From NCBI RefSeq assembly GCF_000002875.2, contig NC_009409.2:368627-432626 (forward strand): a stretch of 64,000 bases of DNA, written 5' to 3'. This DNA comes from Leishmania infantum JPCM5. Taxonomy: Eukaryota > Euglenozoa > Kinetoplastea > Trypanosomatida > Trypanosomatidae. The first letter of the stretch is position 1; each line of letters opens with the position of its first letter. A model generated the notes under the pieces. That model was given only the letters and a program-made list of their open reading frames with translations, was not told where the DNA came from and searched no databases. A program made the position numbers and the translations under genes. This document shows positions 18,849-21,362 of this stretch, one piece after another.

Positions 18849-21362
18849 ATGTATGCGAACATTGGAGAAGAGAACCAGTTCACCGGCCTCGTGGCGCGGT
18901 CGAAGTCGTCTTTGCAGCGCGCAGAGGACTCGGCCGCCGCGACATCAGTGGCGCCGCCGCCGTCGAACACCGGCGATCGATGTCCTGCATCTCATGCGCA
19001 CGAGCCCACCGTTGCCGATGAGACAGTCGACACTACGTCGATTCTGCTGATGCATCTCGATCAGGTCCTCGCTGCTGCCACTGCAGCGAAGGCACACGCG
19101 CGCATCAACAAGCATCAATGCGCGTTGGCTGTACGCCGCCTGCGATTGATTGCCGTCACGCTACGCAAGATGCCGCGGCCGGCGCCGTCGCAGCCGCTGC
19201 TGACCGCGATGCAGTCCCTGTGCCTGCTGCTGCGTCAGTGCGCACACGACGGTGGCGTGGTGGCAAGCACGGCGGAGTCCGCCACGGCACTGCAGATCCT
19301 GTACGGTCCCGACGGCGATCCACTGGGACCGGCACAGTGCTGGCCGGTGCTGCTGTATCATCACTTCACAAGCCAACTGTTCTTCCAAGGTGCTTACCGA
19401 CGCCTCTGGGCGGCGTGGTCCATGTACTCGCACGTGGATCTGGAGCGTGAGGATGGCGTTGCCGAGTCGCTGGACTGCGCCGAGGATGGGCAGGTTATGA
19501 TGGAGCTGCTCCTCCCCATGAGTGTTTCTGGCAGAGAGGCAGATCAATCCGCCTTTGAAGAGGTCGGCAGCGTCAGCCATCATCTGCGCGACCTGCAAGC
19601 CTACCACCAGCGGCGTAAGATGAGTCCGTGGCGAATCCTCTATCAAGACCTGAAGCCGACGGATCAGCTCGTACTGGGGGCCAGCCGACCACGAAGCGCA
19701 TCGGCATCGGCTCCTCCGGCGGCGACGGTGGCAGTGAAGCACCACGCTGATGGTGAGAAGGACGTTCGCTTCCGTGTTTTACCGCACGTGTACCGGTACA
19801 GCGGCGTCCCTGTCGTCGTGAAGGCCCTCTGCGGCGCGGCGGGCACGAGCGACGCAGAAACGCAGGAGGTGGCCATGCAGCACGCGACAGAATTCGTACT
19901 GGACGTGGGGTGTCGCTCCACGTGGTGTCACCCACATATCGTCACATGCCTCGGTGGATACACGGAAAGGTTCGTCGACGACGCGGAGAGCTCGAACGCG
20001 TCAGCGGTGCGCGTCGAGGTAGACGAGAAGGCGGGAGAAGAGCGCCCGGCAAGCGCTGCCATGGCGAGCTTCCCCTGGCAGTGTCCCGTGTCGGCCGTCA
20101 CTGGGAAGCCGATCATGGCTCTGGGGTACGTCCTTGAGCTGCAGAGTGCGAGATTGCTTTCCACCGCCGCCGACTCTGCGCAGGCCTCCTACGTCACGCT
20201 TCACGATTTGCTGTTTGCTCCCCCTTCTTCTGCCGCTTTCTCCTCAGCATCCCTCCCTGTTCTTGGGCGGCACCACTTCACGCTTCACGAGGCCCTCGAC
20301 ATCTGCTCCCAGATCGCCGATGCGCTGCAGTACATCATGAGCGACAGCCATGAGGTGTCGGAGGCGGTGCAGACGGCGTGGTTGACCGTCGACCCTGCGA
20401 ACGTCTTTGTTGTGCGCATGGTCGGACTGAACGGGGATGAAGAGCCGGTGCACCAACAGGAAAGGCAGCAAAAGGGTGGTGTCAGCGGCGACCAGCATGC
20501 GCGAGACACGTCGTCGCCCTTGTCGGTGAATAGCGAAAGTGCCGCCTGGGCAGCCAGCGTCACCCCCTTCGCCGAGGGCGGCAGTCGTGAAGAAGCCCCT
20601 GTCGCGAGCCAACCTGACCTGCAAATCGGTTCCGTCAAGGCGTCGGAGGATGGCGGGGGCCGAGTCGACCGGAGCCTCCCCTACAAGGCGGATACGGTGC
20701 AGACACGGAGTGAGCGGGAGACGGAGGTGTACGTCTGCGGAGGAAGAAAGGGCGATCGCGGCGGCGCCGAAGATGCGCTGCGCCTTCGATCAAAGCACTT
20801 CGTTGTGCGCTACAGCCCGCCGTGCAGGTGGACGCCACACCAGGTCGCCGGAAGTCGTTGGCGCCCGCATGCGCGAGCCACGGCCCCCGCCAGCTACGTC
20901 GTTGTGCAGCTCTTCCTCGCTCTCCTCACGGGCCAGGTGCCCTACGCGTACATCAAGACAGACCGAGAGGTGGAGGAGCGGGTGTTCGCGGGTGCTACGC
21001 ATCAGCTCGGCAACACCTCGGGCACCGCGTCGTGTCTCTCAGGAGCAGAGCCGCTAGCGCCGGTGAAGCCAAGCAGCAGCAGCCAAGGGTACCGTATTCC
21101 ACCCTCGCTGCCGCCGATGGTGGCGAACTGGTGTCGGCGCGCGCTCTCCCTCGATCACAGCCAGCCGCCCATGGAACTGGAGGTGCTGCGCAACACTCTG
21201 ACGACGATTCAAGCCTCTCTGCCTGATAACGTCCGTCACGCACACCTGCACGCGGGGGAAGACGCGACTGAGGGGGACAGAGGAGCCGGTGGCGGTGGCG
21301 GTGGCAGTGGCCCCAATCAGGAGATGCAGTCCTGCATGAGTGGTGAGACGCTCGATGTTTAG
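18849..21362 (+). CDS. MLKL-like protein: N-terminal helical bundle plus TKL-type pseudokinase
   Basis: An 837-residue protein. Residues about 62-140 (LLMHLDQVLAAATAAKAHAR, then NKHQCALAVRRL, then LLTAMQSLCLLLRQC) have the spacing of the four-helix N-terminal domain of MLKL and related adaptor domains. Residues 174-200 (TSQLFFQGAYRRLWAAWSMY...) resemble MLKL's brace helix. A kinase fold follows: SPWRILYQDLKPTDQLVLG (259-277) as the TKL N-lobe entry, beta3 Lys325 in PVVVKALCG, alpha-C Glu348, HPHIVTCLGGYTE (361-373), LTVDPANVFVV (512-522) in place of the HRD catalytic loop, VRYSPP as the APE equivalent, and LALLTGQVPYAYI (about 692-704). HRD and DFG aspartates are missing and the glycine loop is broken by an Ala/Ser-rich insert, so catalysis is unlikely. 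The role is unknown; a signalling or membrane scaffold is inference. Confidence 0.65.
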   Translation: MYANIGEENQFTGLVARSKSSLQRAEDSAAATSVAPPPSNTGDRCPASHAHEPTVADETVDTTSILLMHLDQVLAAATAAKAHARINKHQCALAVRRLRLIAVTLRKMPRPAPSQPLLTAMQSLCLLLRQCAHDGGVVASTAESATALQILYGPDGDPLGPAQCWPVLLYHHFTSQLFFQGAYRRLWAAWSMYSHVDLEREDGVAESLDCAEDGQVMMELLLPMSVSGREADQSAFEEVGSVSHHLRDLQAYHQRRKMSPWRILYQDLKPTDQLVLGASRPRSASASAPPAATVAVKHHADGEKDVRFRVLPHVYRYSGVPVVVKALCGAAGTSDAETQEVAMQHATEFVLDVGCRSTWCHPHIVTCLGGYTERFVDDAESSNASAVRVEVDEKAGEERPASAAMASFPWQCPVSAVTGKPIMALGYVLELQSARLLSTAADSAQASYVTLHDLLFAPPSSAAFSSASLPVLGRHHFTLHEALDICSQIADALQYIMSDSHEVSEAVQTAWLTVDPANVFVVRMVGLNGDEEPVHQQERQQKGGVSGDQHARDTSSPLSVNSESAAWAASVTPFAEGGSREEAPVASQPDLQIGSVKASEDGGGRVDRSLPYKADTVQTRSERETEVYVCGGRKGDRGGAEDALRLRSKHFVVRYSPPCRWTPHQVAGSRWRPHARATAPASYVVVQLFLALLTGQVPYAYIKTDREVEERVFAGATHQLGNTSGTASCLSGAEPLAPVKPSSSSQGYRIPPSLPPMVANWCRRALSLDHSQPPMELEVLRNTLTTIQASLPDNVRHAHLHAGEDATEGDRGAGGGGGGSGPNQEMQSCMSGETLDV

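Follow-up and report, generated by a model that had tools for sequence, protein, structure and literature searches.

The gene and its homologues

The window analysed here, a 64,000-nucleotide stretch of the Leishmania infantum JPCM5 genome (NCBI RefSeq assembly GCF_000002875.2, contig NC_009409.2, positions 368,627 to 432,626 of the forward strand), carries on its plus strand an open reading frame (ORF) for a conserved protein that, by its predicted fold and domain order, is likely a trypanosomatid pseudokinase with the architecture of MLKL. Through its attack on membranes MLKL brings about cell death in animals and plants, and the predicted presence of such an architecture in a conserved Leishmania gene would be surprising for a single-celled parasite. 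The gene and the elements of its N-terminal part are as follows, in window coordinates:

18849..21362, plus strand: whole gene, conserved hypothetical protein, 837 amino acids (aa) plus stop (ORF call, homologue search)
18849..19028, plus strand: predicted disordered N-terminal tail, residues 1-60, with a partly conserved EENQFTGLVARS stretch (AlphaFold pLDDT about 30, conservation)
19035..19094, plus strand: predicted bundle helix 1, residues 63-82 (AlphaFold)
19110..19169, plus strand: predicted bundle helix 2, residues 88-107, holding most of the NKxQC motif (AlphaFold)
19191..19244, plus strand: predicted bundle helix 3, residues 115-132, the LLTAMQSLCLLLRQC string (AlphaFold)
19341..19418, plus strand: predicted bundle helix 4, residues 165-171 and 176-190 (AlphaFold, end-points of MLKL alignments)
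19431..19511, plus strand: predicted first brace-like helix, residues 195-221 (AlphaFold)
19551..19619, plus strand: predicted second brace-like helix, residues 235-257 (AlphaFold)

The protein is identical over its whole length (100% identity, 100% coverage) to an L. donovani 'hypothetical protein, conserved', while a second source labels the matching protein 'Protein kinase domain family prote(in)'. Three homologue searches were made, each scoring about 8000 candidates. Fourteen proteins came from the first one (the identical P0002, 11 of near full length and the partial P0007 and P0008), and a profile search added two distant homologues, P0016 and P0017, both 26% identical; the third, run with trimmed queries, had poor recall, returning no new protein and missing some known ones, P0017 included. 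Eight of these 16 homologues carry an organism name, and all are trypanosomatids: Leishmania, Porcisia, Novymonas and Leptomonas. No Trypanosoma homologue appeared among the candidates scored, a result that does not establish absence. Within the genome searched the gene is the single match, and no paralogue was found among the best candidates, to which scoring was limited; a weak P0017 match elsewhere (C15) was dismissed as chance. The alignments used below comprise up to 14 sequences, that is, the window protein and 13 homologues, leaving out P0002, P0007 and P0008.

The N-terminal helical domain

An initial annotation, made from the sequence by eye, had recognised an MLKL-like layout in three strings: the motif N87-K-H-Q90-C-A-L93-A-V-R96, LLTAMQSLCLLLRQC (residues 117-131) and SQLFFQGAYRRLWAAWSMY (residues 175-193). 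All three are present in the translated protein. None of Q90, L93, R97, L117, L118, W165, F179, R185, L186 and W190 varies across the 14 aligned sequences; with these key helix residues fixed, the helical layout is under constraint rather than a chance reading of one sequence. Conservation of region 61-220 is about that of the kinase core, with poorly conserved tails and inserts around them, and the distant P0016 and P0017 also keep the key helix residues while lacking most of the 134-162 loop. AlphaFold places helices at 63-82, 88-107, 115-132, 165-171/176-190, 199-221 and 235-256, followed by the kinase fold. The N-domain was also modelled alone, besides the full-length model.

The predicted model shows a four-helix bundle followed by a brace, with one reassignment: the SQLFFQGAYRRLWAAWSMY string, first read as the brace, is bundle helix 4, and the brace-like helices (19431-19619) fall mostly outside the interval 18849..19470 to which the layout had been assigned. 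In the prediction they lie between bundle and kinase, as is characteristic of MLKL family members.

The comparison with solved structures agrees with the expectation expressed in the initial annotation. The folds closest to the predicted N-domain are MLKL executioner domains, and the top seven entries are all MLKL, from animals and plants, at 12-14% identity in the aligned parts; HIP1R THATCH and talin R13 rank below these seven. The alignments are known by their end-points only; the best of them ends with model residue 160, which is residue 215 of the protein, paired to MLKL residue 150. As the first brace helix of human MLKL spans residues 130-154 (PMC10603135), this pairing falls inside it, and helix 195-221 can be taken as the brace counterpart. 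A match to AtMLKL2 covers N-domain and brace together (153 residues, model residues 7-203, where 203 is protein residue 258). Among the structural matches listed there is no HeLo or RPW8 entry, which does not exclude one further down.

Net charge is distributed in the same way in 14 of 14 aligned sequences: +4 to +6 for helix 2, +4 to +9 for the bundle and -3 to -9 for the first brace-like helix. A basic bundle combined with an acidic first brace helix is what a charge latch would be expected to look like.

Profile searches, the other check proposed for the N-domain, gave nothing. Pfam scans returned no MLKL-like family and only chance-level matches (best E 0.048), MLKL_N (PF22215) had no reported match at the locus, and the N-domain profile had no match in the PDB at E 10. 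Matches to a viral fold library did not rise over the noise level. A search of PDB sequences with the single protein was likewise without a match. Because no MLKL_N match over the cut-off was obtained, we claim an MLKL-type architecture and not proven MLKL membership.

Several matches met along the way were set aside as chance: OAM_dimer, DUF6699 and PurS, in one member each of the seven N-domain members scanned; the sole MLKL_N match in the genome, sub-threshold at 16 bits, which lies away from the locus (C29) in a seemingly unrelated ORF of 269 aa, judged by eye to be coiled-coil; Phage_lysis in one of 12 homologues in the whole-protein Pfam scan, where the window protein had none at E 1; a ribosomal S15 chain, the one PDB match of an 867-position whole-protein profile; and the chance-level families returned at E 10 for four homologues, including the two distant ones.

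A predicted kinase fold that has lost catalytic residues

The C-terminal part consists of a predicted kinase fold of tyrosine kinase (TK) or tyrosine kinase-like (TKL) type, in which the following elements were distinguished, kinase motifs being aligned by eye:

19626..21233, plus strand: predicted pseudokinase fold of TK/TKL type, residues 260-795, broken up by disordered inserts (AlphaFold, Foldseek, profiles)
19821..19823, plus strand: beta-3 lysine K325 (VVVK), kept in 14/14 (alignment)
19902..19904, plus strand: D352, at the putative helix-C glutamate position, invariant in 14/14 (alignment, position by eye)
19980..20099, plus strand: low-confidence, poorly conserved insert, residues 378-417 (AlphaFold, conservation)
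20376..20414, plus strand: putative remnant of the catalytic loop, AWLTVDPANVFVV, residues 510-522, with T or S instead of the catalytic Asp in 14/14, N518 kept (alignment, motif by eye)
20424..20792, plus strand: long insert after the catalytic loop, predicted disordered, residues 526-648 (AlphaFold, conservation)
20796..20822, plus strand: strand and SPP replacing DFG, residues 650-658, Asp missing in 14/14, P657 and P658 invariant (alignment, motif by eye)
20853..20870, plus strand: SRWRPH at the putative APE position, residues 669-674 (alignment, motif by eye)

The pattern typical of the pseudokinase of animal MLKL and AtMLKL, a beta-3 lysine retained with loss of both the catalytic Asp and the metal-binding Asp of DFG (SPP or similar instead), is found in 14 of 14 sequences. 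No glycine-rich loop was seen in the strand region before K325, where there is a disordered insert. The segment 656-672, to be compared with the activation loop through which a RIPK3-type kinase activates animal MLKL, is short. To judge from these residues, the fold cannot catalyse. Some members of the plant MLKL family, according to the Pm13 study (PMC10951266), retain catalytic residues.

Before trimming, a kinase profile match at E 1 is absent. With the inserts removed, PF07714 scores 25.4 bits (over the cut-off) versus 14.1 for the general kinase profile PF00069, and 23.4 versus 12.1 in a second scan; PF07714 is reported in eight of eight trimmed sequences at E 1 and in four of five longer ones at E 10. 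Control kinases (drawn from 159 matches: 10 among the 20 top-scoring loci, plus 8 with low scores) show the opposite preference, PF00069 over PF07714, in 18 of 18 cases and likewise in 10 of 10 fragments of a similar stretch, but these were untrimmed and not known to be decayed, and cannot show how a decayed pseudokinase would score.

Against the PDB, the kinase profile has CTR1 as best match (E 6e-4), and the best 60 of 228 matches are CTR1 or tyrosine kinases. Structural neighbours among the matches listed are RAF, MLK1, ILK and the JAK1/TYK2 pseudokinase domains; in a Foldseek search with the whole model, Arabidopsis MLKL3 ranks third along the whole chain, with the domains placed differently (TM-score 0.38 by target, root-mean-square deviation 13.1). 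Since PF07714 spans TK as well as TKL kinases, the profile matches do not separate the two; we prefer TKL because RAF, MLK1 and CTR1, which are TKL members, are among the structural and profile matches. RAF1 is assigned to this group in PMC1266030. The TKL-type fold called initially is upheld as TK/TKL. By model, profiles and residues, the kinase part belongs to this type and, like that of MLKL, is catalytically dead.

Genomic surroundings

Other features of the window are listed here as observations in their own right; no tRNA or Rfam match was found in it.

25-1425: dynein heavy chain, C-terminal part
14940-16562, upstream of the pseudokinase gene: ORF resembling NAD-binding 6-phosphogluconate/3-hydroxyisobutyrate dehydrogenases, with long extensions at both termini
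26133-27092: 319-aa ORF ending in a Frataxin-like domain
28626-29257: 9.5 tandem copies of a 66-bp unit with 96% matches, which would make 22-aa repeats if in frame; they lie within ORF 28547-31102, and the middle of this ORF matches FAZ1_cons
40430-42891: change from plus-strand to minus-strand genes, likely a convergent strand-switch region
42891-44132 and 46153-47571, minus strand: CorA-like and DnaJ genes past the switch
48681-63965, minus strand: giant ORF of 5094 aa

A proposed latch and its alternatives

Taken as a whole, the MLKL-like interpretation is partly supported, and homology to MLKL is probable, not proven. On balance we lean towards a gene encoding a pseudokinase of MLKL-type architecture (four-helix bundle, two-helix brace, TK/TKL fold) that most likely works as a latch. 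What the analysis shows directly is the conservation, the predicted fold and domain order, the TK/TKL affinity, the catalytic residue loss and the contrast between a basic bundle and an acidic brace, kept in all aligned sequences. Pseudokinase and acidic brace would keep the basic bundle shut until the pseudokinase sensed a signal, whether a partner bound to it or a phosphate added by a different kinase; the brace would then be freed, the molecules would assemble, and the released bundle would bind acidic membrane lipids. Latch, assembly, lipid binding and membrane damage are inferred here by analogy with MLKL, and the outcome may be death of the cell or some milder action at membranes. For human MLKL, PMC10603135 describes a first brace helix packed against helices 2 and 4; once the brace is cut off, the bundle can permeabilise liposomes, and the mutation R30E in this interface leads to death without a stimulus. 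The stronger version, that trypanosomatids hold a true and very old MLKL family member, an executioner that permeabilises membranes and is restrained by a TKL pseudokinase, we consider rather unlikely.

The same domains could also belong to a scaffold: a TK/TKL-type pseudokinase with an MLKL-homologous fold that never acts on membranes, uses its helical N-domain for docking, dimerisation or autoinhibition, and signals through protein contacts of the pseudokinase. This we regard as possible, if doubtful. Loss of the catalytic residues in all aligned sequences and the large disordered inserts would suit it, and a trypanosome precedent exists in TbNRP1, a pseudokinase reported to have a role in trafficking (PMC9633767). 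Against it stand the opposite charges retained by bundle and brace, which a releasable bundle would need, but a plain intramolecular contact would fit them too.

Two further explanations do away with MLKL altogether, and they overlap and can hold together. The N-domain might be an unrelated helical bundle, for instance THATCH/talin-like, its MLKL likeness being convergence or model bias; this is improbable given that MLKL from both animals and plants fills the top seven entries, that the whole model too finds plant MLKL, and that a TK/TKL pseudokinase follows on the same chain in MLKL order, a joint match we judge hard to obtain by chance. Quite improbable, in our view, is an ordinary trypanosomatid kinase (STE or similar) with no TKL/MLKL link, decayed until profiles misplace it. 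The very divergent sequence, its failure to match kinase profiles before trimming and controls that were not decayed pseudokinases all leave room for it; the preference for PF07714, opposite to that of all control kinases and matching fragments, and the RAF, MLK1, ILK and JAK-type neighbours among the matches listed argue against it.

Should the reading as a TKL-type MLKL relative hold, it would call for a revision of two statements in the literature: that TKL-group kinases are missing from trypanosomatids, or from Leishmania (PMC1266030 and PMC7902614), and that no homologue of mammalian regulated-necrosis genes was found in 67 unicellular taxa, MLKL having been sought by sequence with human queries (PMC7539657). 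In work on metazoan MLKL, fungi and plants are given as the holders outside Metazoa (PMC11476962), and our literature searches, judged by title or start of the abstract of the papers listed, found no report of an MLKL-like protein in trypanosomatid parasites. In L. mexicana promastigotes, 11 fully degenerate pseudokinases were reportedly deleted with viability kept (PMC7902614); we make no claim that the present gene is among them. If a true MLKL member were present, the module would be older than the divergence between Discoba and the animals, fungi and plants, would function in the regulated death of a single-celled organism or in remodelling its membranes, and would place an executioner in a lineage thought to be without TKL kinases and homologues of the necroptosis machinery. 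Whether Leishmania possesses a death machinery of its own is a long-argued question, to which this gene offers one testable candidate.

Comparison with known systems

Mammalian MLKL keeps the beta-3 lysine and has lost catalytic residues. The Leishmania protein resembles the mammalian form in the same combination, in the predicted order of four-helix bundle, brace and pseudokinase and in having it as the best match of its predicted bundle among solved structures; it differs in its long N-terminal tail, several disordered inserts, SPP for DFG, the glycine-rich loop not seen and the lack of a known RIPK3, at 12-14% identity and with no sequence profile match. RAF, ILK and JAK-type folds are set apart by the inserts of the Leishmania protein, up to about 120 residues, and by its apparently non-catalytic state. 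HIP1R THATCH and talin R13 differ in standing below the MLKL entries, and to our knowledge HIP1R and talin proteins carry no kinase. Plant MLKL (AtMLKL2/3; DUF1221/MLKL_NTD) shows no detectable sequence relation, yet matches in structure both along the whole length (AtMLKL3) and over N-domain and brace (AtMLKL2). Fungal HeLo/HELL, plant RPW8 and MLKL bundles are grouped as one superfamily of membrane-targeting bundles (PMC12881547), and it is through this grouping that the Leishmania protein may be likened to HeLo/HELL and RPW8, its own fusion partner being a predicted pseudokinase.
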